The notes under the pieces are model-generated. The model saw only the letters and a list, made by a program, of their open reading frames with translations, was not told where the DNA came from and did not search any database. A DNA stretch of 64,000 nt from Branchiostoma floridae (taxonomy: Eukaryota > Chordata > Leptocardii > Amphioxiformes > Branchiostomatidae). Below, piece after piece: positions 4,091-60,736 of this stretch. Each line of letters begins with the position of its first letter. Position 1 is the first letter of the stretch. The stretch covers positions 14,476,587-14,540,586 of the forward strand of contig NC_049985.1 of the NCBI RefSeq assembly GCF_000003815.2, in the 5' to 3' direction. The translations under genes were made by a program, and so were the position numbers.

Positions 4091-4239
4091 TGTATGTATA
4101 AATCCGATGAGTTGAAACTCATTCAATGTTCACCAGAAGTGTTGAGGATACATTGACTTTGATTCTAGCGACTGATCGTGGTGTTGTGGTGTTTGTAGAC
4201 GTGTTCGTTGAAACGACCTTTCAGGGAAACGTCATTAAG

Positions 4240-4640
4240 ATTTTTTTTTATCTGCACTCTGATCTTACTCTTAATACCTTAACTGGAACTTGAAAAGACA
4301 ACAACAAACTTTTGTTGGTTCGATTTTTTCTGGTTAGGCGTAGGTCCCAATTGCACTGGAACCCGCAGTGGATGTAGCCCCGGCCGGGCTCCGAAGACAC
4401 AAATTTGCGCCGGTGGACTGCCGGACACCCCTCGGTGTAGCCCACAGGTAGATCACGGCGTCTATTTGTTACAGGGTGCCGGCCCAATTTTAACTCGGTT
4501 TAAAAAAAACCGGTACTCAAATTTATCCGCCCGAAAGTGCCATAAAGCAGCCCGTGAACTATCCGGCGTGGCCCCTTTTTCCAATTGGGATCTAAGCCTT
4601 AGGACGTTTCCGAAGCTAGGCTATATGTGAAATTCACTGT
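4240..4640. other. GC-richer non-coding patch
   Basis: A locally GC-rich block (about 4340-4600) inside the AT-rich array that does not recur elsewhere in the window. No coding or RNA signature was recognised. Confidence 0.3.
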
Positions 4641-4944
4641 CCCTTCATGAAGTTCATTGTCTCATTCTAATGTCTATGTGTGAACCTACGAGTATTAAGC
4701 TGATGGTCTAAAAATTACAGGCAAACACAATATTCACGAATGGGAGTCACAAAAAGGATAGAAATACACGATCGTAGTGCATTGGCAACTTGTGCTGGAA
4801 GATTGCCGTGTTTTGAGATTTGTTTTACCTTCATAAAGACCATAAGAGCAGAAGAATTAAAACTGAAAAAATATTTTCTGGATTCAGTTGCTCTCGGACA
4901 AGTCTCCAGGAAAATTCTGAAGCTGAGATTTCTGTCTAGGTCAT

Positions 4945-5105
4945 TGTCCCTTAGTAAAGCCTTACCCTCTTTGTCTGAATCGTATGACGCTACGCGTTTG
5001 AAGCTGATTGGCTTAAGTTGTAACACACCCAATGTTCACGTGAATGATTTCATAATCAGTGTTTGTTTGCAGATTGACATGTGTTAGAAAAAACGGCCAT
5101 TTAGG
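4945..5105 (+). promoter_or_regulatory. Upstream module, copy 1 (diverged)
   Basis: Carries the module landmarks in order: TAAAGCC, ATGACGCTACGCG, CTGATTGGCTT (inverted CCAAT), CCAATGTTCACGTGAA (CCAAT plus the CACGTG E-box), then TTGACATGTG and AACGGCC. The composite ATTGCATCATCAG found in the other left-hand copies has decayed here to ATTTCATAATCAG. Confidence 0.45.
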
Positions 5106-5819
5106 GGAATATTATTCAATTTTTGAAAAGAACAGTTAATCACAAAGACAAAAACTGTATAAACGCAAACGAACAGACACGTGCACATGCATTGATTGGG
5201 TTCTTGAATGGAAAGAAGTTTAGAGATACTACAATGTATCAACAATACTGCAACGTGCCGGACCAAAGGCCAACAATTCGGGGTTGTCTATTGTAAGGAG
5301 GAAAAGGGGAGTGAGGAAATTAGATTATTCGATGCTAGTTGAAAACATTTGGATTAACAAACCCACGTGATTGAATAACTCACTCAACAAACTAGATCTA
5401 TTACCAAATCAATTTTTGAAATATCAAGTGGATTTTCCCTATTTCCCTAGTGTCTATTCTTTATCTTGTCCCTCGGTGGTTTCCAATGGACAAAGTTCAG
5501 ACTACTTGGTTCGTGCAGAATACACTTTAAATGCGCATGCACAGCCTTAGGCGTCTGTAGAGGTGAATACGTGAGGTCATCGTCACAGTGGCATCGCAAA
5601 ATGGAACGTTTAAACAACACCTTCTTTGACCTTTCATGTAACCGCATGGTGCACAGAACCTCATGTATCAAACTTTACTGAACTTGCCTTAAGTTTGATA
5701 CAAGTATCTCATCCGAACAAGCTTTAGCTAGGGACGCGCGTGGCGTTTCTTTCTGGCGGCTCTGTCCAATCATTTTGTTTGTCTTTTAACTAAACATGTG
5801 CATTATTCAAGAAGGGTAC

Positions 5820-6248
5820 CACAAGACTAAGGATTAGCTGCCATCAACTTCATAATGAAACAGGAAGACATACCCGCACCCCTCTGGAACAAAAACTATG
5901 CAAATATTGTAATTTAGACAGAATAGAGGACGAACGTCATTTTGTAGTAGAATGTAGATTGTATACCGCAGAGAAAAATGAACTATATAAGGTTATACAA
6001 AACCAATTTCCTTATTTCATACACCTAAGTTCTGTAGAAAAATTCATATTCCTAATGCAACTAGACAAACCATCGATCATAAAACATATCTGCTCTTTTA
6101 TCTCCACTATAACAGAAAAGCGAGAAGTTTAATTTATCCAGCAATAGTCTCATTTTGTATCTATGAACTGTATCTTTTCAACATGTCTTCTTTTGACCTG
6201 TACTGAGCCCGGTGTGGCAAAAATGTGCAATAAAGGTCTTCATTCATA
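5820..6248 (+). mobile_element. 5'-truncated LINE 3' end, inserted in the array
   Basis: A dead-on-arrival LINE copy holding only the last 103 codons and the 3' UTR. Its tail is AATAAAGGTCTTCATTCAT-like. The surrounding array module is interrupted between GAAGGGTAC and ACATGTGGATATTCC. Uninterrupted copies of that junction exist at about 8975 and 10228, so the boundaries are well placed. The same 3' tail occurs in inverse orientation at about 15009 and, more diverged, at about 7290. Confidence 0.85.
5821..6132 (+). pseudogene. LINE ORF2 C-terminus with CCHC-type knuckle
   Basis: An open frame with no start of its own ends at TAA 6130-6132. It encodes TRLRISCHQLHNETGRH, then the cysteine/histidine knuckle KLCKYCNLDRIEDERHFVVE followed by CRLY, and then a helical tail ending ITEKREV. 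The C-x2-C-x8-H-x4-C pattern is typical of the extreme C-terminus of CR1/L2-like ORF2 proteins. The copy is 5'-truncated by incomplete reverse transcription and non-functional. Confidence 0.85.
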
Positions 6249-6869
6249 CATGTGGATATTCCCGGAAAACTCGCTGTTGTCAAGGGACTAGGCCCTGAAG
6301 GTTTACATGTCTGTAATATTGTATCAAGCGAACGGGGTTGCAAACATCGAGTCCTCGGATAAATCGTACATCTAAATAAACTTGTACACACATGTACACA
6401 AAGTACGTTTCGTCATGGTATAAGTTTGTCAAAACACGCAGTCAGAAGACAGACAGGAAATGTTGTTGATTTTCATGTTTTGAAATCGTTCGGAGAAGCC
6501 ATTTTTTTTCTATTTGCCGTCAATGGCTGAAACCAGTCGTTGATAATTTTAGACTAAGGCTAGTCACTGAGGATAGCTGAAAGAAGGGAAATAATCTCAG
6601 ACTAAACCGAGAGTGAAGCAAAGATTACCAAGGCTCAAAACCAACTTTATTTTTGGTATCCATGAACTTTTCATTATAACATCGAATGCACGCAAGATAA
6701 TCAAGTCCAATGCTTAATTTTTCTACTGTTGTACAACACCGTTTTTGCCAGTCGCTCAAAGCCGCTATCTCAAATACAGACAAATATCTTATTTCCATAT
6801 ATTTTGAAAATTTGGGGATTGTTGGACTTTTGTAAGACTTTTTCAAGCTTAGATTTCTGTGGGGTTCAT

Positions 6870-7050
6870 TTTTTCTTGGTAAAGTTCATTGCGTCTTCGT
6901 CTTAATTACATGACGCTACACGCCTACAGCTGATTGGTTGAAGTTGTATCACACCCAATGTTCACGCGAAGGATTGCATCATCAGCTTGTGTTTGTAGAT
7001 TGACATGTGTTTAGAAAAACGACCTTTTTCGGGAAATATCATACAATTTT
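6870..7050 (+). promoter_or_regulatory. Upstream module, copy 2
   Basis: Contains AAAGTTCATTGCGTCTTCGT, ATGACGCTACACG, AGCTGATTGGTTGAAG, CCAATGTTCACGCGAAGG (the E-box is mutated to CACGCG), GATTGCATCATCAG (an exact C/EBP-ATF composite TGATGCAAT on the other strand) and TTGACATGTGTTTAGAAAAA. The binding-site reading is from motif knowledge; function is inferred. Confidence 0.45.
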
Positions 7051-7506
7051 TTTTAATGTTCTACTTTTACATGGACCCGAAGAAAACGAAATTTATCAAA
7101 ATGAAAAACTTTTGTGGATTTAACGTCTCCTGCATAAGTCGCACCTGATTTAGTCACAAACCGACGGAACCGAACATAATCCAAGTTTCAAACCACGGCT
7201 TTTCGAGTTGTGCAGTCAAACCAACTCAAATGCTTATGATAACTCAACGATACCAATCGAACGAAATATACCATAACAAAACCTGTTGATGGAATTAATG
7301 ACAATGGAGTTTATTGCATATTGATGCCTCATTGGGGCTAAATGCAGTCAGTTTGGTGCAAAGAGAGTGAACAGAAAGCTATACATATACTACAGTTTTC
7401 AATTCTTCTCTCTTCTGAAAGCATGTGTAGACGAACTTACAGAGTTTTTCCAGTACATCGTAGTTAGATGTTGACATAAGGTATTTTAGATCTTCCTTCG
7501 TTATAA

Positions 7507-28600: not shown

Positions 28601-29095
28601 CTGGTCGAGACATCTTCGCGCATGTTTGGCGTTAAAATATAGGCGTGTCTAAATCTGTTCCAACTGCTCCTGAACTACCGACGGGTATACCCATAGTGAT
28701 AGGGTTTGGGAGCCATGTTCGGCGATGTCATAGTGTAACCTGGGCTTTACACGTCGTGCCAATCAGAGGTAAAATAAGGAGTTGGAGTCAAGCTCACAAA
28801 CGATTTGCACGAATGCATATTTCACAAATGACTTGTTGCAGTTAAGACTTCTCAAAGCTGTTTTATTTGTACAGTTAATGGAAGTCTGCGCTAGCCCACG
28901 CTAACGTCAAGGTGGTGGAACTTGTCTTTGATAAGCCTGACGTCGGCCCCCGCAAAATCATTTGTCAGAGTGCTGAGCGCAACGTAGTTTTTCAGCTAAA
29001 CCAAGCGAGCCACAACAACAAGGGAGTGGCGTTTATTCAATCACACATGTTGTTAAAGAATTATCAACCGGGCGTTCAGTAACAGCGGAAAGGCA
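25665..29095. other. Long stretch without a supported gene
   Basis: Only short open frames; none combines splice signals with a recognisable protein motif. Two adjacent minus-strand frames (26553-26825 and 26833-27120) are the longest but show no family signature. It contains the small inverted repeat at 26031-26118. Confidence 0.4.
26031..26118. repeat. Foldback of 16-17 bp arms
   Basis: GCAGATCCTACGGTAGC at 26031-26047 pairs with GCTACCGTGGATCTGC at 26103-26118, enclosing about 55 bp. It could be a tiny MITE or a hairpin. Confidence 0.7.
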
Positions 29096-31204: not shown

Positions 31205-32225
31205 AATTTCCGTCTCGTAAACTCACTCATCCTCGCAAGCTGGCAAGGGCGTGGCGCCTCCAGTTGGTTCTGTCCTTGGTAGCTAGCTAGGCTGTGTGGA
31301 GGTTGGGTCCGGCCTTCCTCAGGTCTGCATTAAGCTGGTCATGCCACCTGGCCGGGGTCTTTCTCGGGGGCGGGGCCAGTGGGGTGGGGCTGATCAGGTT
31401 GACCAGCTCGAGAACTGGTGTTGTTCTGGCGGTGTGGCCGAATAGACGGAGGCGGGCTGATCGGATTAGTCTGGAGAATGGTGGCTGGTTGGTCAGTTGA
31501 CGTCAGCATAGTCCATATCAGAAATAGTCACGTTGCTAAATCTCGCTTCACAGACAGTCTCTGAGCAACGGTGCGTCCCATCACATGGTCTATGGCGGTG
31601 TTGAAGATGGTAGGTGCCAAAACGCATCCTTGCCAGACGCCGCTGTTTCACGAAGGTGTTCGACAGTATCCCGTTCACTCTTAGTCTTACAGGAGACGGA
31701 GTGTTGGAGTAACGAAGGGACAACAGGTCCAGCAGTTTTGCAGGGACTCCAAAGATCTTGACGATCTTCCACAAAGACTCCTGTCCACGGAGTCAAAGGC
31801 TTGCTTTAGGTCCACATAGGCATCCCAGAGAGGCTTCCTGTACTCCCGTCTCATCTCTGCTAGGAGCCTAATTGTCAGGATCCTGTCGACTGTGGAGCGG
31901 CATGGGGTGAATCCACTCTGTTCAGTTCGTTGCTTTCGGAGAAGAAGCGGTCCCAGTCTGGTTAGGATGATGTGGACAAGCACTTTCCCGTGGACGCTCA
32001 ACAAGGTTATGCCCCTGTAGTTCCTGCAGTTTTCCTTGAGGCCCTTCTTCCAAGAATGATTCCATGGCGCCAGTCAGCAGGGATGGTCGCAGAGTTCCAG
32101 ACGCAGCAGACATGGCAGATCAGAGAGTGGAGTTGTTCCACCACGGGTAGGCCGCCGTGTATACGTAGCAGCAGTTCTGGATGAATTTCATCAGCACCAG
32201 CAGCCCGTCCAGGCCATCGTTACTA
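31205..32225 (-). mobile_element. LINE remnant, antisense in the intron of the repeat-peptide gene
   Basis: A minus-strand RT belonging to a different LINE lineage from the copies at 1-1830 and 7290-8765. It enters within RT block 1 (DEIHPELLLRIHGGLP), runs through the palm and ends near 31205 with a C-terminus of the type DRTNWRRHALA. Several frameshifts break it. The 5' part with the endonuclease is missing. Confidence 0.8.
31493..32004 (-). pseudogene. LINE reverse transcriptase core, frameshifted
   Basis: Two overlapping minus-strand frames together carry RT blocks 2-5. The sequence includes LLRKQRTEQSGFTPCRSTVD, DAYVDLKQAFDSVDRSL (catalytic aspartate block), WKIVKIFGVPAKLLDLLSLR and RLRVNGILSNTF. 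The frame then reaches SDMDYADVN, where the catalytic YADD has become YADV. The altered second aspartate and the frameshifts make it inactive. Confidence 0.8.
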
Positions 32226-32683
32226 ATCCACGTCATGTAGTGTATTTTCATGTGAGGGAATAAAGACCATTCAGTGCGAAGGTTGTAACTAAAGCAGAAC
32301 TCCAGGTGTCTTCTGCCGTTGCCATTGCAGGCGCCTGTTCCATGAGGTTCAAGTTACCTCTCAAATCCCTGTCTGTCAGTGCCTGGTGTGGCATTCCGGT
32401 CCCTTATAACCCAAATGATGTCATGCCTAGAGATCCCGACTGTGAGGTCTGACACACAGCCTTGTGTGTGTTCACTGAATACAATCAAAAAGTGATATTC
32501 GTCTTCAATTAGCTCTGGACAGAATGGAGCCAGTTTGAGATTTGGTGATCCAAGGGAAAGGGGTACAGTACTTTGTTGCGAAGTCCACAGCCATGCATTG
32601 CGATTTTCGCGATTGCTTAAGCTTCACATGGTGAACCATCCAACTAACCATGGATGTTTCCTTTCCACAGTTGAAGATACATC

Positions 32684-35600
32684 ATGAAGCTGTTTGTCTG
32701 CACGCTGGCTGTGACGATGGTTGTCGTCGCAATGATGATTGAAGACTCCGAGGGAGCACGGTACCGGCGGCTTACGCGGCGCTTCCGTGACACAGATGAA
32801 GTACTGAGTACGGTTGTGGAGAAGGCGAGGGCGCTCCTGGACGACCTGGATGAACTGCAGCACTTGCAGGTTGAGGGTACCGGTGGCGGCGTGCACGTGA
32901 CCGGGGGTACACGGGGTCGGGAGGTAGAGGATCTGGAGGAGGATGACTGTAAGAAATTCCACTTATTTTGCTCGTAACACTCATCCACATCCGGTAACAC
33001 TCATACTTCAAGAAGTGTAAGTTAGTAAGTTAAATATATACATTATCATGCATAGATTCTGTAAATGTGATAGTTATAAATATATATAGTTTTGTATAAT
33101 TAATTATAAAATGGAATACTGCTAAAGGACTTTCACATACCATATATTCTATTCTGGCAGAGAAGACAACCGTTTAAAATAGACTACGCTAATGTTTGTA
33201 TAATGAATAGTTCAAGACAAAAGAACAAGATCTAAAAAAAACTCCGTATATATTCATGCAAGACAGTATGAGGTCTCCGAACTCTTGTTTAAACTTGCGT
33301 CGCTACAAATTGAGGCCTGTTGCAAGGCATAGATTCTTGCAAAGACATTCTGCTTCGACCCTTTATTCATTTGCCCTTGCCTATTGTCATGCAAGTACCT
33401 GAATTCGATTTTTTACTTCGGTATCTTCGTGCGTATCAAAAGGAAAAATATTTGATAAAAGTTTGTGGTGCTTTTTGTACAGCAAATCCGCGCATAGTCA
33501 TAGAAAATTGCTTCTATATGAACTGCGACTTATTCCTAGTCTCTCCTTGGGAGGAAGTAGTTAACTAGTAGTTGTGCCATTCAAAATGTCCTGTCGGTAA
33601 GAGTAATCGATGTCCTTACTTCCAGACGTGCGGGGGCGACGTACGCCTACAGGCTTCAGGACGGTTGAGGGTACCGGCGGCGTGCACGTGACCGGGGGTA
33701 CGCGGGGTCGGGAGGTAGAGGATCTGGAGGAGGATGACTGTAAGAAATTCCACTTATGTTGCTCGTTTTCATCCGGTAACACTCTAGAATGTAACAATGT
33801 CTCTTTATTCGTCCAGTGGGACATTGTCCACGTATTCAGCATGCCACGTTGAAATTATTAATAGAGTATGAAGTTTTCAGTAGCATGTGAGTGTGTGGAA
33901 GGGGCGTTTCCGGCGCTATATCTCCAAAACGAAACGTGCGGTCGCGATGATATTTGGTACATGGGTTGGGGGTGGTGGCCTGAAGCTCAGGTTGGATTTT
34001 GGCGAAACCCGTTGATATTTTTCAGCTTTTTCGGACCAGTCCAAGAAGTAATTAAAAAATTAAAAAGCGGGTTTGTACTGATATTATGTACTGGTCCCTA
34101 CACCTAATTGTTGATATACCATGCTATGTGTGTTTATAGTCCTATGTTCAACTTTCTTGATAAGGTTTCATACTGAAGGCAATTTTTTTTTTTTGGGGGG
34201 GGGGCACTTTTTTATTCGCTCGCTCGCATCAGTTTTGGGGTTCATCCATATAATCAAATCAACATGACCTTTTAGAGTTTGTGGGTAGGTTTTGGGAAGA
34301 TGAAGGGCAAAGTCAATTTTGGCCCCCCTCACAGCTTGCTCTGAAACTGAAAAAGCATGGTTTTCATTTTTTCCCAAGAGAATATCTGTACAAAGGAACC
34401 ATGTCTGTCGATGATATTTGGCATGCAGATATTTTCGAGATGCAAATATCATCATCATCATCATCAATGAGGAAAGTCTATAATTCCAATGTTTTCCATA
34501 ATAAGAGTTTTAAAACATGTAATATTTGAATTCCATGGCAGGTGGAACATTTACAGGTATAAATTATTCAAATTAGAGTCTAATTTGCATAGTTAATGTG
34601 AATGTGCCATAATTTCTTGCTACGTTATATGTATTTCATACTTCAACAGGTATAAGTTAGTAAGTTAATTTTTTACATTATCATGCATAGATTATGTAAA
34701 TTTGATAGTTATTTGTATAATTCATTATAAAATGGAATACTGCCAAAGGAAATTCATACATATCATATATTCTATTCTGGTAGAGAATACAATCATTTAA
34801 TAAAATGGACTACGCTAATGTCTTTATAATCAATAGGACAAGACAAAACAAAAAGATCGCAAAAACTTCGTATATTTCATGCAGGTATGAGGTCTCCGAA
34901 CTCTTGTTTAAATTTGCGTCGCTGCAAATTGAGGCCTGTTGCAAGGCATAGATTCTTGCAAAGACATTCGGCTTCAGCCCTTTATTCATTTTCCATTGCC
35001 CTTTGCCATGCAAGTACGTGAATCCGATTCTTTACTTAGGTATCTTGGCGTGTATCAAAAGGAAAAATATTTGATAAAAGTTTGTGGTGCTTTTTGTACA
35101 GCAAATCCGCGCATAGTCATAGAAAATTGATTCTACATGAACTGCAACTTATTCTAGTCTCTCCTTGGGAGGAACTAGTTAACTAGTAGTTGTGCCATTC
35201 AAAATGTCCTGTCGGTAAGAGTGATCGATGTCCTTACTTCCAGACGTGCGGGGGCGACGCACGACTACAGGCTTCAGGACGGTTGAGGGTACCGGTGTGC
35301 ACGTGACCGGGGGTACACGGGGTCGGGAGGTAGAGGATCTGGAGGAGGATGACTGTAAGAAATTCCACTTATTTTGCTCGTTTTCATCCGGTAACACTCT
35401 AGTATGTAAAGATGTTTCTTTATTCGTCCAGTGGGACATTGTCCACGTATTCAGCATGCCACGTTGAAATTATTAATAGAGTATGAAGTTTTCAGTAGCA
35501 CGTGAGTGTGTGGAAGGGGCGTTTCCGGCGCTATGTCTCCAGAACGAACCGTGCACGTGCGATCGCGATGATATTTGGTACATGGGTTGGGGATGGTGGC

Positions 35601-37491
35601 CTGACGCTCAGGTTTGATTTTGGCGAAACCCGTTCCAGTTTTTTTAGGGATCGGTCCAAGACGGGTTTGTACCGGTACGATGTACGAAAATTTGTATTAT
35701 AGACCTAATTGCTGGTATACCATACTATGTGTGTGTGTGTGTGTTTTTCTGACGACTCAGGTTTCATACTGAAGGAATTTTGTTTGCCAAATTTTTTTTA
35801 TTCGGGCGCTCGCATCAGTCTTGGAATTCCCAGAGGATGTCATCCATATAATCAAATCAACATGGCCTTATCGAGTATGTGGATAGGTTTGGGGAAGATG
35901 AAGGCCAAAGTCAATTTTGACCCCTAGCAGCTTGCAGAACTGCAGATCTGGAACTGCAATAATGTAAGATGGGATACGCTAATTACAGCTTTGTTTGAAT
36001 AATCAATAGGACAGGACAAAACAAAAAAGATCACAAAAACTCATGTATATTTCATGCAGGTATGAGGTCTCCGATCTCTTGTTTAAACTTGCGTCGCTGC
36101 AAATTGAGGCCTGTTGCAAAGCAAAGATTCTTGCAAAGACATTCTGCTTCAGCCGTTTATTCATTTGGCCTTGCCCTTTGTCATGCAAGTACGTGAATTC
36201 GATTCTTTACTTAGGAAAAATATTTGATAAAAGTTTGTGGTGCTTTTTGTACAGCAAATCCGCGCATAGTCATAGAAAATTGCTTCTACATGAACTGCGA
36301 CTTATTCCCAGTCTCTCCTTGGGAGGAAGTAGTTAACTAGTAGTTGTGCCATTCAAAATGTCCTGTCGGTAAGAGTGATCGATGTCCTTACTTCCAGACG
36401 TGCGGGGACGACGCACGTCTACAGGCTTCAGGACGGTTGAGGGTACCGGTGGCGGCGTGCACGTGACCGGGGGTACGCGGGGTCGGGAGGTAGAGGATCT
36501 GGAGGAGGATGACTGTAAGAAATTCCACTTATGTTGCTCGTTTTCATCCGGTAACACTCAAGTATGTAAACATGTTTCTTTATTCGTCCAGTGGGACATT
36601 GTCCACGTATTCAGCACGCCAGATTGAAATTATTAATAGAGTATGAAGTTTTCAGTAGCATGTGAGTGTGTGGAAGGGGTGTTTCCGGCGCTGTATCTCC
36701 AGAACGAAGCGTGCGATCGCGTTGATGTTTGGTACATGGGTTGGGGATGGTGACCTGGCGCTTAAGCCCCCTTCACACGAGAGCACGAATGAGCCGGAAT
36801 GACGTCCGAATAAATTTTTTTTTCTATTCGTGGCAATTCCTCGCAATTCGTACCGTATTCTAAATATTCTTACTGCATTCGAGATATTCGTCCCCGTTCT
36901 TTTGGCTGGCTCGAAAGTTTTTGACATGTTAAAAACCGTCGAGGTGCATTCGAAGTGGAGGAATATTGAATGGCATTCGTAGTGGATTCTTAGTGTATTC
37001 TAACTATTCTGACTGCAGTCTGACCGCATTCTACGGCATTCTAACATTATTCGAAACATTCTTATCTCATTCGATGGAGAACCGAAACGGCAAGCCACCT
37101 CGAATCCTGCCAGAATGTGGCCGAAAGAATATTTCGAATGCCGTAAGAACGTCTAGAATGCCCTACGAATTCACAGGAATAGACAAGAATTTTCATTCTG
37201 ACGGCATTCCGGCTCATTCCTTCTCGCGTGAAGGGGATTTAAGGCCCATTTGGAATTCCCACCCGAATGGCCCCGAATGTGACATGAAGTTTGCAAATAC
37301 TTCATTCTGTCTGGTTCGGCTTGATTCCTGCTAATTCGATTTCCGTGTGAAGGCCCTATAAGGTTTGATTTTGGCGTTCCAGTGTTTTTTTAGGGACTGG
37401 CCCAAGAAGTAAAAAACGGTACGAGTAATCGATGTCCTTACTTCCAGACGTGCGGGGGCGACGCACGCCTACAGGCTTCAGGACGGTCTGA
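32684..37491 (+). CDS. Secreted repeat protein / candidate peptide precursor, 5 coding exons
   Basis: Exons are 32684-32948 (UTR from 32671), 33626-33739, 35244-35354, 36398-36514 and 37448-37491 (TGA), totalling 651 nt or 216 aa. Each internal exon follows TTACTTCCAG and ends GAGGATGACT before GTAAGA. They measure 114, 111 and 117 nt, all multiples of three with phase 1 at both sides, so any number stays in frame. Residues 1-24 form a signal peptide (MKLFVCTLAVTMVVVAMM..). Residues 63-88 are VEGTGGGVHVTGGTRGR plus EVEDLEEDD. Each added exon then gives YVRGRRTPTGFRT plus that block again. RGRR and TRGR resemble prohormone cleavage sites, and EEDDY resembles a tyrosine-sulfation site. AATAAA at 37553 is 62 bp after the stop. 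I recognise no family; the peptide-precursor role is inferred. Unspliced, exon 1 would read through to a stop at 32975. Confidence 0.6.
33012..34650 (+). repeat. Tandem genomic unit 1 carrying repeat exon 2
   Basis: Starts at GTAAGTTAGTAAGTTAA and holds TTATCATGCATAGATT, GAGGTCTCCGAACTCTTGTT, AAATTGAGGCCTGTTGCAA, TTTGTGGTGCTTTTTGTACA, the exon at 33626-33739 and GTGTGTGGAAGGGGCGTTTC. It is the longest of the three units. Extra material includes a G/T homopolymer region near 34185 and a (TCA)n run near 34450. Confidence 0.8.
34651..35965 (+). repeat. Tandem genomic unit 2 carrying repeat exon 3
   Basis: Same landmark order as unit 1, with the exon at 35244-35354. A short (TG)n run lies at about 35730. 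Confidence 0.8.
35966..37447 (+). repeat. Tandem genomic unit 3 carrying repeat exon 4
   Basis: 5'-shortened unit with the exon at 36398-36514. It is interrupted by a foldback element (36767-37356) inside the text that reads GGCCTGACGCTCAGGTTTGA in unit 2. The unit sequence resumes at AGGTTTGATTTTGGCG and leads to the terminal exon. Confidence 0.8.
36767..37356. mobile_element. Foldback element, about 590 bp
   Basis: The left end CCCCCTTCACACGAGAGCAC is mirrored at 37200-37236 (GAGCCGGAATG on the left against CATTCCGGCTCATTC on the right, then GAAGGGG). A second, outer copy of the end (CGTGTGAAGGCCC) lies at 37344-37356. The left half is rich in ATTC and the right half in GAAT, as expected for long inverted arms. 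It is flanked by TTAAG and TATAAGG. Unit 2 provides the uninterrupted site. No coding capacity. Confidence 0.8.
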
Positions 37492-37734
37492 AGACCAGAG
37501 GCTGAAGACCAGCGACGCCAACAGCAGGCCATGACGAAACGCTCGGTTGATGAATAAAGATGGTGAAAATGCAGTCTTGCTATGATCCTTATCCGCATTC
37601 TGTTGTACTTCTCGCTTTCACGTAATTGCTGTGAAGTTTTTTCTCATTATCTTGACACTACATCAATTGCTCCATACATAAAGTAGCATCTTCAGAAAAA
37701 TGTTATATTCACCAAGACAAGTCATTTGGTTTCC

Positions 37735-45439: not shown

Positions 45440-47670
45440 AACCATTCCGTCACACTGACAAACAAGGGAAAAATTACAGAGTCGCAAACTGCAATGCAAG
45501 CAGTTACGCTTTATTTTAAGGAATAAAAAAGCCACAACTAAACAAATCTCAAACTTCCTTAACATCGCCAGTCTCAATGTCAGACAGCAGATACAGTAGA
45601 GTTGGTAACTGTACGGGTGTTAAAAGACTTGATATTAACAATAGCTTTCAATGTTTTCTGGGGACTGTAACAAACTAGATGTAACACAATGCACTATTTG
45701 CAGCTGTTTTCCTTGCCATGATAAATCTTAAGCTACAATGGGCTTCCCCCTGTCAGTTCATATCTTGATGAAACCTATAACAGATCATAAGATGATGGTA
45801 ACACTTTGTCTTGCTTCGTTACATTTTGGGTCTCAAGTTCTTAACATGTCACAAGTTGTTCTACATACCCATTAAACATTCAACTTAGGATAACATGACA
45901 TTAAAATCTGCTTACGTCATTGATGTACAGATGAAAGTTATACCTGTGACAAAGAAAAGCAATGCAGTTTTTTTATCTTAAAAACTACATTCACACAAGT
46001 TTCACGAGTCTTCCATATAAGTGTTAACTCTGAGACCAGAGTATATGCTTTCCTTTGGCTTTAGATGGAACAAAGCGGTTCTTTCTTTTGCAGTGTTAGA
46101 CTTTCAACAGTGTAGACTGGGGTCTAACTTTTACTTATCGTTTCCTATGGACAATGTATACTTGAAAAAATGTCTCAATGATATAGATACAGCACCTCTA
46201 TGTGTAGATAGTTTTACACATGTTTTTAGACTGCTGTAGTTGACTAACAGTCTGCGTTGTTATATGGATGTAACATCGGTCTCAACATGAGGTGCTTGTA
46301 TCTAAAACATTGGCAATGAAAAACAAAAACTATTGGCACAGCGTCTACTTCTATGACAGAACCACAATTTCCTAAGGCTTAACGCCTTCAAACGTTCAGG
46401 AAAACTCACAATCTGAATATTTCTCACTTTTCACCAAGTAAACTTAGTATGATTTGTCATCAGAAGGACATTGTGTACGTACCTGCTTACCAATAAATGA
46501 TTACAAAAAAAGCAATAAAGTATCTATAAGCACAGCGTCTACTTCTATAACAAAGCCACCATTCCTTTGGACTTGTGGTGTTACATAATTTTATAAACAT
46601 TCACAAGCTGATGGTTTCTCATTTTTCACCAGGTAAACTTGGTATGACATATGCTATCAGAAGGACATTGTGTGCCTGTATCTAAGTAATAAAAACAATA
46701 AAACTATGCATACTCTATCAGCACAACGTCTACTTCTATGACAGAATCAAAATTTCAGCAAAACTCACAATCTGAATGTTTCTCACTTTTCACCAAGTAA
46801 ACTTGGTATGATATCTGTCATCAGAAGGACATTTTGTGCTTGTATCTAAATAAATGGTAATAAAAAAGCGATAAATTATTCAAGATCTATTAGCACAGCG
46901 TCTACTTCTATAACAAAGTCATCATTCCTTTGGACTTGTGGTGTTAGATGATTACATGAAAATTCACAATCTGATTGTTTCTCACTTTTCACCAGGTAAA
47001 CTTGGTATGACGTATGCGATATCAAGAGGACATTGTGTGCCTGTGTCTATATAAGCGGTAATAAAAAGCAATAAAACTATGCAAACTCTATCAGCACAGC
47101 ATCTACCGAATCAATTTAATTTCTTATGAGACCTGTTGCACTTCTGAAGTTCAGGAAAACTCACAATCTGAATGTTTCTCACTTTTCACCAAGTAAACTT
47201 GGTATGATAGCTGTCATCAGAAGGACATTGAATGTGTGCTTGTATCTAAATAAATGGTAATAAAAAAGCAGTAAGATATGTTGGCACAGCGTCTACCCAT
47301 ATGACAAGATTCACATCCCTGTAGAATTACTATCTTCCCAAAATTCAGGACTATTCTCACTCTGGATGTTGCCAACTTGTTATCTGTCTCTAGATGGACA
47401 TTGTGTGCCTGTATCTAAATAAGTAATGGCAAAATGAGAAAAACAACAACACTGTGACTGAAGTCAGGGGTTACATGTGCATGTATGAAAGTGAAATTTG
47501 AAGACGCATTAAACAATATGATAAAGGAAAGGTAAGGGGAATTGTCAGTGAAAAAGAGGTCCAAAGGATTATGTTGTAACCGCATGACTTCAGTCTGATC
47601 AGCCTTCGTAAGAGTTCTTTAGTACAAAGGCAGGAGAGTTACCTGAACACACTCTCAAGGATATCCTTAT
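45440..47670 (-). repeat. Segmental duplication, copy C (inverted)
   Basis: Reverse complement of about 20840-22710 of copy A. It starts at ACCATTCCGTCACACTGACA and ends near AAGGCAGGAGAGTTACCTGA. The (TG)n tract and everything beyond it are not included. Confidence 0.85.
46300..47430 (-). repeat. About 195-bp tandem repeat, six units (copy C)
   Basis: GCACAGCGTCTAC or close variants occur near 46337, 46530, 46723, 46895, 47095 and 47287. This is the expanded, inverted version of the array at 21080-21835. Confidence 0.85.
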
Positions 47671-48307: not shown

Positions 48308-51300
48308 TTAACCTTCAAAACGAAATGTTGCCAAAGTAAGAATATGCTGTAACAGTAACTGCCACCATGAATTTAAAAAGTGAATTCTTATACCAATGGA
48401 AACTTCAACAGAAGTTTTTGATGAAGTTGTTGATGAACTTGTCGCTGATGAAGTTGCAATTGTCGATGATGTTGATGTTGATGAAGTTGTTTCCTTCCTG
48501 ATCGGGTGACTCGGAATTTCGTTCGCAAATCTTAAACAAAAAGGAACAACTTTAAGTCGGAATTGCAATAGATAGATTATATGCATTAGATCTTGTATAT
48601 CATAACAACATTAGGCAAACACAAATTTGTGATGAAGTTTGTGCAAAGCTGGCTTGAGAATATGCGATAATATCTGTATGAATCCAAAGAAAGGATGGAA
48701 GCTTTGTGTTTGAAATAAAGTTTTAATTCCAAAAGTGTTTGTCCCATAGCCAATGTTGGACGTCTATGCTAATTAACGGACTTAAAATTGTATTAACTAA
48801 AGTATAATTTAAAGATCCTGCGGGCTCTGTAGCATGTTTTAACTTACGTCGTTCACATGTATTAAATGAAAATAAATTGGTATCTTTTGTCTCCATGCAA
48901 GAAAAACAACTGAAGCTTTTAAAAGTCAAGGGAAGCAAAATCTATGAACCCTCAGAAAGACCCGATTAAATTTTGTTCTCATAGGAAAACGTAGAAATAA
49001 GGTAAGAAGTAGAAATGCATACATGATGGGCATGTGAACCCTCATCTATATAGAGGCATTTTCAATTATCTCGAAAAGTTATAGATTTGCATGATTATCT
49101 TTATTTGCACATTTAAGAAAGGTGATAATTCTGCTTACCCGACCAACAACTTGTTGTATTGCTGAATTTCCTCCATCATAAACAGACCGGTTGTTTCCAC
49201 GATTGTCTTCTCGTGCATCTCCATGATTTGCCTCACCTGTAATAGTTCATGTCAAGAGCATGATGAAATAAATGCAGCATTGTCTCTATTCTTGTCAGAG
49301 GCTGATATTATGTCGATTTGAGTCTGCTTTTTAAAAAGTGGGAAAATAATAATATATTCAAATTCTTGCCAGTCAGGGCTAATTGCAGGTAACAAATAGT
49401 CGGACAAATAGGGCGGACATATAGTCTAGAACAATATAGCATGTGCCCACTTTAGTTTAACAGCTGTAAATATTTGAGCTATGTCCTCGTCTTGTGAACA
49501 AAAACAGACGTGACACGGTTCCTATACCTGGTATGCGCAACACAATACTTTCTATGCTAAAATCTATAGTATTACCATAATGATTATGACTTTTGATTTT
49601 AAGACTGTATGCGAATGATAAGGATGAGGATTTACATGTTGTGTCCATTGCGCCCTCATTAACTTCTGAACTTCCAATTGTTTCAATCGAACTTCCTTCA
49701 TGAAGGCGAGTAAGTCCGGAATACATTTCAAACAACTCTCCCGTATGATCTGGATGTCCTGGGGAAAACAGAGTGAAAATATGATCAGAAAATATGAGCA
49801 AATACATGGGATCATGTTCTACTTTCAGTTGTCACATCTACCAACATCTCCAGTTCTCAAAATGTTGACACCAGGCACAGTGTGAATGTCCAGTGTGAAA
49901 ACTCTTCCTTGCCCATACCCTACTTTCTAAACCAGTGTCTATGTTGCTCCTGTACCTCTTGACGAATGAGTTGACGATGAATGACTGATAATGAAACGTT
50001 CTATTTTACTCGACATGTTTTTACTTTGATGGACATGGTACATGTATTTGCATACAGTGTCTTTGACTTGAGCCTGTCGTTCATTAGATAAGAGCCGCTT
50101 TGTCAGAAAAGATATGTCATCTGATCAAAGTTTAACATTTCGACGACTGCTTGACGTACCTTTCCCTCAGTTGCCTCATATGTCAAATCAGATTCCTCGA
50201 GTGATTCCATCAGTCGTTTGGCTTCCTGCTTCACGCCGGAGATAGTTCCCACTTTCTGCAAGACAAATCACCTTCTGTTAGCAATGGAATATGTAGCAAC
50301 TTGATATAACTAATTCTAGCTAACATCAACGTTGCAGCGTTATACCCATTCCTTAATCAACAAGAGTTCAGAGACCTCATATCTCCATGAAATATGCAAA
50401 GTTTTATCTTGTCTCATCACTAAGGCTGTAATTAGCATAATGTATGCATCATGGTGTACACCTTAACCTAACTTACACATGTCTCAAGTAGGTAATTTCT
50501 ACCATTTACCACAAAGGAATGATAACACCCTTGTGTTAATTGTGCAAATTAATTCTCAATTGCATAATTGAGATCTGTGGATGTTCCACATTAAAGTCAC
50601 GTATGTATCTGTCACATTTTTTCTGTTTTCAAAGAGGTTTGATAAGCATTAAATTAGTTCAATGTCAACTTAAAACATTCAAGAGAACAATGTTACCGTC
50701 TGAATAGAAGTTAGCCTTTCCTGAATGCCACCTAGTTCCTTTTGAATGTTCTGTATCCTGCAGGAGATGACAAATATAATACCAATGATGAGATTTTCAT
50801 AGTTAGGACAACGTTGACATAGTAAATAGTAAATGGTTTGCATAATTAACAAGAAATTGCTTTTAAAAAATTCGAATGAGGCTGAGAGGACGCTCAATAT
50901 TTGCATTCGGGTGGAGGAGAAAGAGGTTGATTCAGATCATACCAATTATGACCATTTTGGAATAAGAAATGGGAAAAAAAGATTAAAGATTATTGAATGT
51001 GGTATCTGATGGGATTTCGTACTTGTGACACATGTTATTTAAAAGAGATGAACATCAATACAAAATTATTCAAATTAGGACATCATTCGCATATTTTGAT
51101 TAGAACGTATTAGTTGTCAGAGGCATGGCATCCATGAATTGCATTGTACATGTATTATGAAACTGTGTAACAACTTTGTAATATTTCTCATAAACTACTG
51201 CTGAAATGCAATGCTGCCAATTATGCAAAATTTTGTCCATCTATCTTTTTTCTTTGCATCGTGTTGTCCCCAGGCCACTCAAAAGTACCAAAAATGAAGA

Positions 51301-54237
51301 TGCAAAATCTTACTCTACCTTCAGAGAAGGAAAAGGACAACATGCTTATAGTGTTGTATAGCATACCCTACAGCAGTAGGAAGCAGTTTAGCCATGAACC
51401 GTTTTGCATAGTGGGTTCGTGTGCCGCAATCGGCAAAGTGTTCGATTCATAACCCAGAGGTTCTGGGTTCGAATCCTTTGATGTGCCATCGTGTGCTTGG
51501 GAAAGGCACTTAACACGACTTTCCTCACTTTACTTAGGTGAAAGTGAGTACCTAGCTTCGGCTAGGGCCGTTCCTCGGGTAGGACGTTAAATGGACGTCC
51601 CGTGTTTGAGGAGAGCCACACCCCAAGCACGTTAAAGAACCCACCGCACTTATCTAAAAGATTAAGGGTCCTTCTCGGTCTGAATGATTCAAAAACCTAC
51701 AGTCCTATGGCCGCACCTGGGGCAATTACTGTCGTATTTAGGTCAGCAGAGTTAGTGCCGAATGGCAGCTCGCTCCAGACCCTTGCGAATAGCCCCTCCT
51801 ATTGTAAACTCCTCACAATTCAGCCCCTGGTTGCAAAGAAAAATGTAGTCGGCCCTCCCAATAACAATAACAATCCTTATATTACTTATTTCGCACTGAC
51901 CTTTCAACTGCCTGGTCAACTTCCTGTTTGACTTCCTCTTCGAAGCTAAGTCGCCCCTCGAAGTCCAATGCTTTTATTGCTTCCAGCACAGAAACTTTCT
52001 TACCTGACTTCAACTTCATCTGGATTTGTTTGAAGTCATGAACCGTTATTGTGATTTTTTCTCCTTCCTATTAAAGGCGAAAACGTTGCAAATTCAAATA
52101 GATGTAGAAGCTTATGATAGTGATAACACAGCTGTCGCGTAGGCTATGTGGCACAAATTCTTACTGTTCTCTGTGAAGATCCTTAGCTGCCAGAGATTGT
52201 TGCCGTTCACGTCTAAGCCAGGTCAAAGATTTCTAATACTAGAAACATCAAGAGCTCTGAGTATCACGAAGGGGCCCAATTACAGAATACGTTGACCAAC
52301 AGTTAGCATATTTATGTATTCATGAAGCAACAGGATTGTCGGTGTTGGACATGGGTCTGCCCAAACACCTCAAGAGACCTCAAACGTTTCTAATATGCGG
52401 TGTACATGTGGCATCAACCTTGTGTGGCGCTCTGGATACATTGTTTATGCATTTATGAATTAAAACAAAGCAGATCGAAGGTTGAGGTCGTTTGAGGTGT
52501 TTAATACGCAGACCTGATGGACATCAGGCCTAGGCTTTTAGAGGTCTCAACAGTAGAAGGACCATACAATTGGTTTGCTACATAAAAATAACTCTTAATT
52601 GATGAATAAGAAAAAAATTAGAGGTTGGGTTTAGTTTACCCTTGATTCTGTCATTCCTTTAATCAGCTTTTCCAGAACTTCGTTGAGGATTTGCATCTCA
52701 GCTTTTCCCTTTGGGACTAAAAACAATCATTTTTAAAAGATTTTTTTAAAGAATAAGCGAGATAAACCTGTACACATACTAATACAGACAAACAAATAAA
52801 CCTAAAACAACACTATCGTATTCATGTAGGCGACCAGGAACTATTTGTATCAACATCATGTAAAACAATTATCCAAGGGTACGAAAAAAGTCAGGCTGGA
52901 CTGAGAAAGCCATTCGGAACTTATGTACAAGTATTAAAGATGCAAAACACTATAGATTTTATGCAGCACTCGGATAATAATATAACTGGCACTTTAGGAT
53001 AGTGGACTATTTGAATACATTTTTTGCACAAAAGTCAATGATGATTTGTATATATCCATCTTAAATACTGTTTCCCACTTCAGCCCTTTGCCACATCAAT
53101 TATATCAACAGCACGTCCTCCAGTCACTAAGGAGATAACATAACTCTACTGTTCCGATATCAAGTTAAAAGCAACTGAACCTTGTCTAGTACAATGATAA
53201 TTTAGCTCTGAAAGTATGTGCATATATGTTTGGCCCTCCCCTCGCCAAACTGTTTCGCTACTCACTGTCCATGAGCTTCTCACAATCCGGTCCATCCTGA
53301 AAAACAAATCGACACATACACTTACTTACTTACTTACTAAGTTAAACTTACTTGGGCCCTTTTACCCCATACGGAGCATAGGCCACCGATGACCATACAC
53401 ATACACCTAAAGTGTAATAATTACTTCATCAAATCTACTTAACTCTCCTCATTCCCTCTGATCTGTATCTCTCCTGCTGATTGGTCAATGCCCTGTGTAG
53501 CTCTTCTTTTGATTGGCCAATTTCCGGTGTGTCTATCTGGTTGCCAATTGGTCAATTTTATTATTCACCACTTGAGATTTATAATTCAGTCACCACTTGA
53601 GAATTGGTATTCACCACTTGTGGCACTTCTCATAAGACGTCACAACCAATATGAAATGGTGACTTTATGATAAATCTAAATGTACAATTTGAGCTTGCCT
53701 TCGTGAAGCTGGCGCCGTCGGCAGTTGGACGTGGGTTGTCCGTCGTGTCAGCCATGTTACCTCCCTCGACCTAAAAGAATGAATGAGAACCTGAGGTTAC
53801 ACAAAATCTTATAAGATCAGAGATTTCATTTTGAGACCAAAATTTCCGAAGACAATATTTTGTAACATTGCAGTCTTGGAATATCAAATATTTTCAATAC
53901 CTCCTTAACTATACTCATTCCTTAAGCTTCAGCATATGTATCTCTCCTGATTGGTCAATGTCCGGCGTGGCTCTCATTCTGTTTGGTCAATCTTATTATT
54001 CACCACTTGAGATTTATCATTCACCACTTGAGATTTATCATTCACCACTTGAGAATTAGTATTCACCGCTTGTGGCACTTCTTTAATGTTAAGGCGTCAC
54101 AACCAGTATGAAATGGTGAGTTCTGATTGGTCGACGTCGTATCACTTAATGATAAATCTAAATGTACAATTTGAGCTTGCCTTCGTGAAGCTGGCGCCGT
54201 CGGCAGTTGGAAGTGGGTTGTCCGTGGTGTCAGCCAT
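48308..54237 (-). CDS. Unrecognised helical, probably coiled-coil protein, 9 coding exons
   Basis: Exons (minus): 54237-54181, 53296-53266, 52716-52640, 52067-51901, 50757-50697, 50255-50160, 49758-49636, 49236-49139 and 48530-48308. Lengths sum to 933 nt (310 aa), and all phases join without a stop. The start is MADTTDNPLPTADGASFTK, the first exon ending at a GC donor (AAG|GCAAGC). A second copy of that exon at 53755-53699 could replace it or be added in frame. The middle is helical, glutamate/lysine-rich and lacks known catalytic motifs (VLEAIKALDFEGRLSFEEEV, RIQNIQKELGGIQERLTSIQ). The last exon encodes a Ser/Thr-rich run from a TCA/ACA microsatellite, then a hydrophobic end (FLNSWWQLLLQHILTLATF). 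TAA at 48308-48310 is followed 20 bp later by AATAAA. Promoter copy 3 lies upstream. A scaffold or immune-adaptor role would be a guess. Confidence 0.75.
51410..51885 (+). mobile_element. tRNA-derived SINE
   Basis: The tRNA-like head has an A-box-like GGCAAAGTGTTCG near 51432 and an exact B box GGTTCGAATCC at 51466-51476. Next comes a body with GGGAAAGGCACTTAACACGA, CTTTCCTCACTTTACTTAGG and AGTGAGTACCTAGCTTCGGC, wording I associate with deuterostome SINE bodies. It ends in an AATAACAATAACAAT-type tail. It lies in the intron just downstream of exon 4 of the minus-strand gene, in opposite orientation. Confidence 0.75.
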
Positions 54238-54359: not shown

Positions 54360-54890
54360 AAAAAAACTCCTATCTTTCTTTTAATCGCAATCGTCATTAT
54401 TGCATTTGTATAAATTCCTTTCTTTTAATCACAATCGTCATTATAACATTTGTATAAATCAACTTTCTTTTAATCACAATCGTCATTATTGCATTGGTAT
54501 GAATTCCTATCTTTCCTTTAATCACTATCGTTATAATTACATCTACATAAATTACAAACTTTTCTTTCATCACAATCCTCATAATTATTATATTTGTATA
54601 AATTCCCACCTTTCTTTTAATCACAATCGTCATAACTGTGTTTGTGTAAATTCCTACCTTTCTTTTGATTACAATGGTCATAGTAATTGCAACTGCATAA
54701 ATTCCCACCTCTCTTTTAATTACATTCGTCATAATTGCATTCGTATAAATTCCTGCCTTTCTTTGAATTAAAATCGTCATAATTGCATTTGTATAAATTC
54801 CCATGTTTCGTTTGATTACAATCGTCATAATTGCATTTGTAGAAGGATGAATGTCTTTCATTTCCAATCGTCATAATTGCATTTTATAAA
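54360..54890. repeat. About 60-bp minisatellite in intron 1 of the minus-strand gene
   Basis: About nine diverged units of CTTTCTTTTAATCACAATCG, TCATAATTGCATTTGTATAA, ATTCCTACC. Because units are near 60 bp, long frames stay open on both strands: on minus IYTNAIMTIVIKRKVG-like repeats (54867-54397), on plus INSHLSFNHNRHN-like repeats. No start context, splice evidence or family resemblance supports translation. Confidence 0.85.
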
Positions 54891-55238
54891 ATCCCGCCTT
54901 TCTTTCATATCTTGGCTGTCAATCGTGCCCAAAGATGCATCCTCCTTTCATCTGTTGTGCACTCGCAAGTGGCTCAGGAGTCCTGCCTTTCTTTCCCTCG
55001 CAATCGTCATAATTACATTCATATATATCTATCAAATAACATACAAGCCTCGAAAACGACGGTCCAAATCAAAACGATGGTTGATGTACAAATGGTGGAA
55101 AGCCGATACGATTGTGTTGTACATTCATTCTGTATGCAAGCAGTAGTAACATTGTCTTCAATTGACATCTACTAGTAAAAGAATCGGTAATATGTTTTTT
55201 TTACAGAAGCGATTCAATCGGACATTTGGCCGACATTA

Positions 55239-58964: not shown

Positions 58965-60230
58965 GATAACGTCATATAATTAAAAAGAAGAGGCAATGAA
59001 CTTAACTAAGAGACGATGACACCACAGAAAGATCAACTTCAAGAAACTTTTAAACTGGACAACTGGAATCCACAATAGTATATCATTTTGTTTGGATGAA
59101 CGTCTTTTGTTCTGAGTCCCTATTGAGGCAAAAAAAATCACAATAGTTAAAAACTTTAATCACATTTTCCTAAAAGGCCGTTTCTCTAAAAACGCCAGTC
59201 TACCAACAAACACTGATCATGCGGCCATACACGTGAGACTTTGAGACTTTGAGACTGGGTGTGTCTAAAACTGACCAATCAGCTGTCTGCGCTTAGCGTC
59301 ATGTAATAAAACGAAGACGCAATGAACTTTACTACGGGACAACGAACCCACAGAAAGATCAACTTCAGAAACGTTTTAAGAAGGACAAGTGGAATCCACA
59401 ATAGTATTTGATTTCGTCTGGATTAACTTCCTTTGCCTTGAGTCCGTGTACAGGCAGAAAATTTCACAACTTTACTAACATTTTCCTAAGAAGGCCGTTT
59501 CCCTAAATACACCAGTCTACAAACACACATTGATCATGCGGTCCTGCGCGTCAGCACTGGGTGCGCCTACAACTAACCAATCAGCTGTCTGCGCTTAGCG
59601 TCATGTAATTAAAACGAAGAGGCAATGAACTTTACTAAGAGACAACAAACCCACAGAAAGACCAGATTCAGAAAAGTTTTCAGCAGGACAAGTGGAATCC
59701 ACAACAGTGCATGTTTTCGTTTAGATTAAAATCTTTTGCCTTGAGTTCGTGTTGAGGCAGAAAATTTGATAACTTAAATCACATTTTTTTTAAGCCGTTT
59801 CTCTAAATAAGTCAGTCTACAAACACACATTGATCATGCGGTCCTGCACGTCAGCACTGGGTGCGCCTACAACTGACCAATCAGCTGTCTGCGCTTAGCG
59901 TCATGCAATAAAACGAAGAGGCAATGAACTTTACTAAGACACGATGAACCCACAGAAAGATCAGCTTTAGAAATTCTTATCTGGGGAAAGTTGGATCTAC
60001 AAAAGTATTTTGATTAACTTTTTGTTTTGGTTGCGAGTCCAAGTTGAAAAGGTCAAAAACTTAATTTCATTTTCCTGAAAAGGCCGTTTTTCCAAACACA
60101 TGTTAATTAAACACAAGTTGATCATGTACTACGATTAGATAGAACCATTATGATAACTAATCACCTTTGTGCGCAAAGCAGTAACAACAAATATTGCAAA
60201 ACAATGTTCTTACTGTCAGTCAGGAATTCA
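58965..60230 (-). repeat. Tandem array of about 300-bp inverted upstream modules
   Basis: GAGGCAATGAACTT or variants occur near 58998, 59323, 59628 and 59923. Each is preceded by ACCAATCAGCTGTCTGCGCT and GCACTGGGTGCGCCTACAAC, and each is followed by CCCACAGAAAGATCA. Spacing is about 295-325 bp. A last partial copy lies at 60070-60200. Confidence 0.85.
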
Positions 60231-60392: not shown

Positions 60393-60736
60393 GCGTAAAG
60401 TATTTTTCCCCGGTTTCGACACTAAGCCGTTGGGGTGTAAAGTATTGTTTCCCGGTTTCGACACTAAGTCGTTGGGGGGGTGTAAAGTATTGTTCCCCGG
60501 TTTCGACATTAAGTCGTTGGGGGAGTACATTATTGTTCCCCGGTTTCGACACTAAGTCGTTGGGGGTGTAAAGTATTGTTCCCCGGTTTCGACACTAAGT
60601 CGTTGGGGGTGTAAAGTATTTGTTCCCCGTTTTCGACACTAAGTCGTTGGGGGTGTAAAGTATTGTTCCCCGGTCTCGACACTAAGTTGTTGAGGGTGTA
60701 AAGTATTCTTCCCCGGTTTCGACACTAAGTCGTTAC
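60393..60736 (+). repeat. About 41-bp hairpin-forming minisatellite, eight to nine units
   Basis: The unit is TGTAAAGTATTGTTCCCCGG, TTTCGACACTAAGTCGTTGG, GGG. Within each unit CGAC pairs with GTCG around ACTAA, and flanking CCCC with GGGG. Units differ by single bases and by the length of the G run. Confidence 0.95.

Follow-up and report, generated by a model that had tools for sequence, protein, structure and literature searches.

A lancelet repeat-peptide gene likely built by stop-codon loss and exon-to-exon duplication

The window, that is, the whole 64 kb stretch of lancelet DNA analysed here (C7:14476587-14540586), contains a repeat-peptide gene whose internal exons are fusions of its last and first exons. 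It is likely a coding gene that belongs, in derived form, to a dispersed family; loss of its stop codon was probably followed by an exon-to-exon duplication and then by amplification into a repeat array. A single genome thereby offers a readable record of how a one-unit peptide gene becomes a repeat-peptide gene, with the single-unit relatives as the picture before the change. The gene also leads to a large family of lancelet peptides that carry a leader and are rich in arginine.

Gene structure and coding signal

The gene model comprises five exons on the forward strand, separated by four introns that all have GT-AG boundaries and all interrupt the frame in phase 1. The spliced reading frame is open over 216 codons, with neither a stop nor a frameshift, and all eight splice sites are intact. 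Exon 1 (32671..32948) begins with 13 nt of 5′-UTR, and its coding part (32684-32948, with the ATG at 32684) specifies, in order, a leader, a basic stretch of the form RYRR..RR, a helix and an acidic tail, VEGTGGGVHVTGGTRGREVEDLEEDD. This tail (32869-32947, forward strand) supplies half A of the repeated unit, and the exon closes on the phase-1 donor GACT/gtaaga. Exons 2 (33626..33739), 3 (35244..35354) and 4 (36398..36514) are the internal fusion exons, measuring 114, 111 and 117 nt and joined at the GGT triplets 33663-33665, 35281-35283 and 36435-36437, respectively. The last exon, exon 5 (37448..37560, its end being approximate), encodes (Y)VRGRRTPTGFRTV in the coding part 37448-37491 and terminates with a TGA at 37489-37491. 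Its 3′-UTR carries an AATAAA at 37553-37558.

The introns retain traces of a common history. The 3′ part of intron 1 (32949..33625; 677 nt) is homologous to introns 2 (33740..35243; 1504 nt) and 3 (35355..36397; 1043 nt), and the 5′ part of intron 4 (36515..37447; 933 nt) is held in common with the same two introns. Of the shared 3′ part, intron 4 retains no more than the final 31 nt or so, and it holds an inverted-repeat insertion. This insertion (window 36761-37243) has inverted arms at 36761-36889 and 37127-37243 that are 73.6% alike, with TTAA near both outer ends as judged by eye. It is taken here to resemble a short non-autonomous DNA transposon, and no copy was found in the relatives' loci L009-L039 that were searched.

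The first-pass annotation of this DNA had proposed much of this architecture. Its four splice junctions (32948-33626, 33739-35244, 35354-36398 and 36514-37448) are exact, its internal exon lengths and conserved phase 1 hold within the open frame of 216 codons, and its stop exon followed by AATAAA is located as described above. Its view of copy number is also supported: the internal exons are in frame and symmetric (phase 1-1), so copies can be gained or lost without breaking the frame. The genomic repeat spacing of 1.3-1.6 kb that it gave has to be revised, as the exon start-to-start distances are 1618, 1154 and 1050 nt. The exon array itself is confirmed, and the earlier reading of it is partly supported as a whole. 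The fusion nature of the internal exons, the most likely 3′-UTR origin of the last-exon half and the dispersed family were absent from it.

Several properties of the locus bear on whether it is a gene at all. The start of exon 1 at 32671 fits an acceptor, tttccacag/TTGAAG, lying 13 nt 5′ of the ATG, and 30 of the 31 fetched relatives likewise have a YAG within the 25 nt that precede their assigned start, L039 being the exception. GC content is 0.60-0.71 in the exons, 0.35-0.44 in the introns and 0.397 in the window. By a codon-position composition score, the exon 1 frame ranks first among 577 stop-to-stop open reading frames of at least 45 codons, a rank that supports coding but is no blind test, since the score was picked after the composition of exon 1 was partly known. 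The GC contrast, this rank and the matching exon 1 ends of five relatives indicate that the repeat-exon gene is more than a product of chance.

A dispersed lancelet family

The genome assembly searched comprises 513,431,437 bases in 431 contigs. A search with exons 1 and 5 returned 32 matches, made up of four exons of the window gene and 28 other loci. A second query, an 86-residue composite of relatives applied at a threshold of E <= 0.01, returned 65 matches, namely 41 first exons on 16 contigs (the window gene included) and 24 second exons; two of the 41 first-exon matches have E values above 0.001. These counts are lower bounds, and duplication in the assembly may explain some of the copies. 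L018 and L019 have 1604 bases in common at 99.75%, bordered by N runs.

Of the 40 first exons besides that of the window gene, 31 were fetched. The relatives have the leader, the helix and the place and phase of the intron in common with the window gene. Over residues 1-60, the leader exon of the window gene is 56-60% identical to loci on C2, C4 and C9. All 31 fetched relatives carry a run of at least three basic residues soon after the leader, 27 of the 31 carry an R-X-[KR]-R motif after it, and many read MKLFVCMMLVTMVVMATLIDDSEGWRRRRRRRRGR. In the window gene no run of three basic residues follows the leader, where RYRR and RR only are present. Descent is judged here by sequence and gene structure; the basic run is a common family trait and not one that descent requires. 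The pooled nonsynonymous/synonymous ratio of exon 1 is 0.16 over 15 relatives, which indicates that the leader exon is constrained in the family. None of the four family members tested reaches any Pfam cut-off. The window gene is a member of a large and dispersed lancelet family that combines a leader, an arginine-rich stretch and an acidic helix, and that has apparently not been described before.

Duplicated segments occur around several members of the family. L040:3304-8572 and L041:3308-8640 (with L030, L031 and L032) mark a segment of about 5.3 kb on C5 and C9 that is 97.9% alike, and a further copy on C18 is more than 99.5% alike in the 2.4 kb of it that were retrieved. One left edge of this segment is an N run, so both recent dispersal and assembly duplication would account for it. 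Downstream of the family gene at L010, a 1887-base tandem duplication with 99.9% identity lies at reverse-strand coordinates 3479-7250.

Probable loss of the stop codon

Among the fetched relatives, L009-L011 stand closest to the window gene. They have two exons parted by the same phase-1 intron, and they end in (Y/N)ARRRR followed by the stop. In all five of L009-L013 the helix lies in exon 1, and exon 1 ends in phase 1 at the same place, after an acidic tail that in L009 reads LEDLGQEEDD. The second exon then adds, before the stop, NARRRR in L009, YARRRR in L010 and L011 and DAMRRR in L012, the first residue of each addition being split by the intron; the second exon of L013 ends differently, in DAP. 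Basic terminal exons were found in 4 of the 30 relatives examined (L039 left out), so that the basic C-terminus is a feature shown for near relatives only. L009 and L011 align with the window gene by BLAST in the start of the intron and in the terminal exon, including the 3′-UTR, and L010 was placed alongside by MAFFT.

In codon register, L009-L011 read CGC TAA CTC CTA and then nine codons closing with TGA; the window gene reads CGC and then directly nine codons closing with TGA. Across these nine codons, TGA included, 18 or 19 of 27 nt match between the window gene and each of L009-L011. L012 reads CGC TGA CTC CT at the same codon, where TGA is its stop, and the MAFFT alignment opens a 9-nt gap in the window gene at the position of the lost stop. 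The window gene lacks the stop codon of these relatives, the state expected after a 9-nt in-frame deletion. Such a deletion, which the alignment fits, would be the simplest account of the loss, with the exact mutation uncertain because the aligned stretch is short. The last-exon codons after CGC (37463-37488) align with the 3′-UTR of L009-L011. The TPTGFRTV that they encode is most likely former 3′-UTR, and the TGA that now ends the frame is present in L009-L011 too.

Fusion exons and probable growth of the array

Each internal exon follows the last exon through GGT with one or two differences and, from GGT onward, follows exon 1 apart from a few differences and Gly indels. The junction GGT is common to exon 1 (32869-32871), to exon 5 (37485-37487, where it forms the junction overlap) and to all three fusion exons. 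Read against their two parents, the internal exons each join the opening part of the last exon and the closing part of exon 1 across a 3-nt overlap. A tandem duplication broken in both of these exons would yield exactly this structure, and a short overlap is a usual trace of such joints.

The array was probably assembled in three steps. Loss of the stop would have opened the last exon as far as the breakpoint; it is placed first because the old stop would otherwise cut a fused exon short. Next, a tandem duplication whose two ends fell within exon 1 and within the last exon would have created a symmetric phase 1-1 fusion exon. Finally, recombination among the repeated introns, by unequal exchange or by gene conversion, would have brought the number of fusion exons to three.

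The growth of the array seems to be recent. Compared pairwise, the copies show 3-4 differences among 111-114 exon sites, and in the flanks, which span some 350 nt on the 5′ side and 240 nt on the 3′ side, 4-7% of sites differ. The synonymous distance from the window gene to the five relatives L009-L013 is 0.42-0.94, and next to this distance the copies differ little, so the array is young and far younger than the gene. The repeat peptide, which the first-pass annotation had put forward as a search query, matched this locus alone when run on the genome: no second locus was found in 513 Mb, the next best match having E = 0.12. Within the 64 kb window no further unit copy was convincing (other matches, E >= 0.78).

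The direction of change is read from relatives within one genome, which gives some room for an ancestral array that the two-exon relatives lost while regaining a stop. That order of events is very improbable, however, in view of two diverged groups, L009-L011 on one side and L012 on the other, whose stop falls at one and the same codon, the youth of the copies and a repeat found at no other locus. Growth from a two-exon gene is therefore retained as the preferred account.

Selection on the exons

Variable columns number 5 of 111 in the exons and 44 of 567 in the flanking introns (p = 0.32), so that no extra exon conservation is seen. Exon 1 of the window gene, compared with L009-L011, gives a dN of 0.36-0.39 and a dS of 0.42-0.58, which amounts to fast evolution. 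Because the exons are not clearly conserved over the introns and exon 1 changes fast, the locus could be decaying or unexpressed, with a frame that stays open through youth alone, an idea that the lost stop and the element inserted in intron 4 would also suit. We nevertheless consider such a decaying or silent copy unlikely. The 216 codons run without a stop or frameshift between eight intact splice sites. Two further signs are weak: the exon indels measure 3 and 6 nt only, and synonymous third positions make up four of the five variable exon columns, an outcome with a chance of about 0.03-0.07 in a simple model.

The product and its possible mode of action

The leader is hydrophobic over approximately residues 3-19, with a mean hydropathy of 1.8-2.7 in windows over residues 1-18, in keeping with the signal peptide of the first-pass annotation. 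The basic cleavage-like sites named there are present as well, with one RGRR per unit (residues 91, 129, 166 and 205), each fitting both R-X-[KR]-R and Gly-Arg-Arg. The repeated EVEDLEEDDYV blocks are likewise real, but they number four, because exon 1 itself carries one. A computed cut after RGRR gives three peptides of 34-36 residues after removal of the basic residues and Gly, each with a charge of -4, and also leaves an N-terminal piece and an 8-residue end.

Secretion of the product and its cleavage at the four RGRR sites are probable. It would enter the secretory pathway, and furin-type convertases would then cut after each RGRR, which would release three copies of a peptide ending in EEDDYVR along with the end pieces. 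With three peptide copies per precursor, one transcript would yield more peptide. Secretory-pathway entry followed by furin-type convertase cutting into several copies is the likeliest way of working, although it is proposed tentatively. Host defence or mucosal secretion is the likeliest role, and is offered more tentatively still. An acidic tail beside a basic end, split by an intron, is a trait of the near relatives that the array has multiplied. Tyr is present in two and the amidation Gly in none of the five close relatives (L009-L013), so sulfation and amidation are weak readings; the sulfation-like EEDDY noted in the earlier reading loses weight, its Tyr being found in only 2/5 of the closest fetched relatives.

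The repeat protein could instead be secreted and left uncut, as a loose chain of alternating acidic and arginine-rich blocks that acts as one piece, for instance within mucus or matrix, with binding that would strengthen as repeats are added. Its origin would be the same as in the preferred account. Such a chain would suit the pairing of EEDD with RGRR in each unit and the absence of the Gly of the amidation-like GRR from the relatives. An AlphaFold model of exon 1 alone, from a single sequence (mean pLDDT 66.2, pTM 0.29), consists of one long helix (2-62) and a loose tail, which from residue 63 has a pLDDT of about 47-57 and looks unfolded in the prediction, as an uncut chain might be. The uncut chain is nonetheless somewhat unlikely, given that RGRR matches R-X-[KR]-R in all four units and that such a motif follows the leader in 27 of 31 relatives.

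Alternatively, the leader could remain uncleaved as a membrane anchor, with the arginine-rich part in the cytosol and a product neither secreted nor cut by convertases. In the relatives as many as 8-10 arginines come after a long hydrophobic stretch, and the positive-inside rule could hold the C-terminal side of an anchored product inside. The acidic DDSEG between the hydrophobic core and the arginines, and the small residues near the likely cut site, would suit a signal peptide, and anchoring is improbable.

The array might further act as a peptide accordion, in which unequal exchange between introns would vary the number of acidic, Tyr-bearing peptides between individuals, with a linker of 3′-UTR origin gained by stop loss and perhaps under pathogen pressure. 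This extension is doubtful. Lancelet individuals have already been resequenced according to the excerpt available of one report (PMC12373286), so copy number is directly testable.

Comparison with known systems

The following comparisons draw on excerpts of the published sources. The caerulein and magainin genes of Xenopus laevis are described as containing tandem repeated peptide exons, with unequal crossing-over as the proposed driver (PMC3731216). The window gene resembles them in having tandem peptide exons in one gene, near-identical copies and basic cut sites. As excerpted, the caerulein and magainin genes descend from the cck gene and can be likened to the window gene by their working only, whereas the repeat unit of the window gene is a last-exon/exon-1 fusion that a lost stop would have enabled.

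Apidaecin is a proline-rich antibacterial peptide. In the honeybee it is made from a multi-copy precursor whose units lie on separate exons (PMC3415428, as excerpted). The likeness to the window gene is that several exons each contribute one unit to a precursor. The comparison is made by description, and it differs in concerning an insect gene with no known stop-loss origin.

BjAMP1 is a short lancelet precursor that carries a leader and an anionic part together with basic residues and a dibasic site (PMC4683396, in the part available), all of which recall the window gene. The 21-residue mBjAMP1 given there for Branchiostoma japonicum (PMC4683396) matches C11:7847867 at 100% (E = 2e-8), a locus that was not among the matches of the genome-wide family searches. 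This exact match establishes that the genome is that of a lancelet. BjAMP1 differs in having cysteines, a C-terminal cationic part and, as this match indicates, a separate locus.

In bivalent spider toxins the linker comes from a former C-terminal tail through an intra-exon duplication (PMC13172734, as excerpted). There, too, repeat units are linked by sequence that was once a C-terminal tail, but the duplication lies in a single exon, no intron separates the units and the domains are cysteine-rich. The micro-exon genes of Schistosoma encode secreted products from exons of 6-81 bp (PMC10526429, in the part available), and share with the window gene short exons, mostly of a multiple of three, between long introns. 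The internal tandem copies of the window gene, at 111-117 nt, miss this micro-exon size.

Given the precedents of caerulein/magainin, apidaecin and the bivalent spider toxins, the repeat-peptide kind of gene is already known. Neither the lancelet family nor the lost-stop route was found in the literature searched, which covers few subscription papers, and none of EVEDLEEDD, VEDLEEDDY and EDLEEDDYV occurs in it. The family and the stop-loss route to repeats look new, though tandem peptide exons are known.

Rejected identities and other features of the window

An AXH domain (Pfam PF08517) was considered for the product and rejected, as the spliced protein scores 19.8 bits against a cut-off of 33 and none of four single exons matches. 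A PDB sequence search with the product gave one match only, with E = 0.92, Rfam and tRNA scans gave no hits, and no relative of exon 1 was confirmed in viral contigs.

Two of the 19 distinct window ORFs compared with Pfam score above its cut-off: an endonuclease (PF03372) at 761-1744 and a reverse transcriptase (PF00078) at 31687-32070, both on the reverse strand. They are probably retrotransposon remnants, and the latter (31687-32070, reverse strand) sits just upstream of the repeat-peptide gene. The ORFs 50106-50267 (reverse), 51885-52067 (reverse) and 28879-29079 (forward) have good codon-position scores. None of the three has a Pfam match, and 51885-52067 and 28879-29079 gave no useful PDB match; all are possible exons of further genes. 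Large tandem repeats occupy 46388-47271 (unit of about 363 nt), 54364-54905 (about 48 nt), 59254-59973 (about 303 nt) and 60395-60734 (about 43 nt) of the window.
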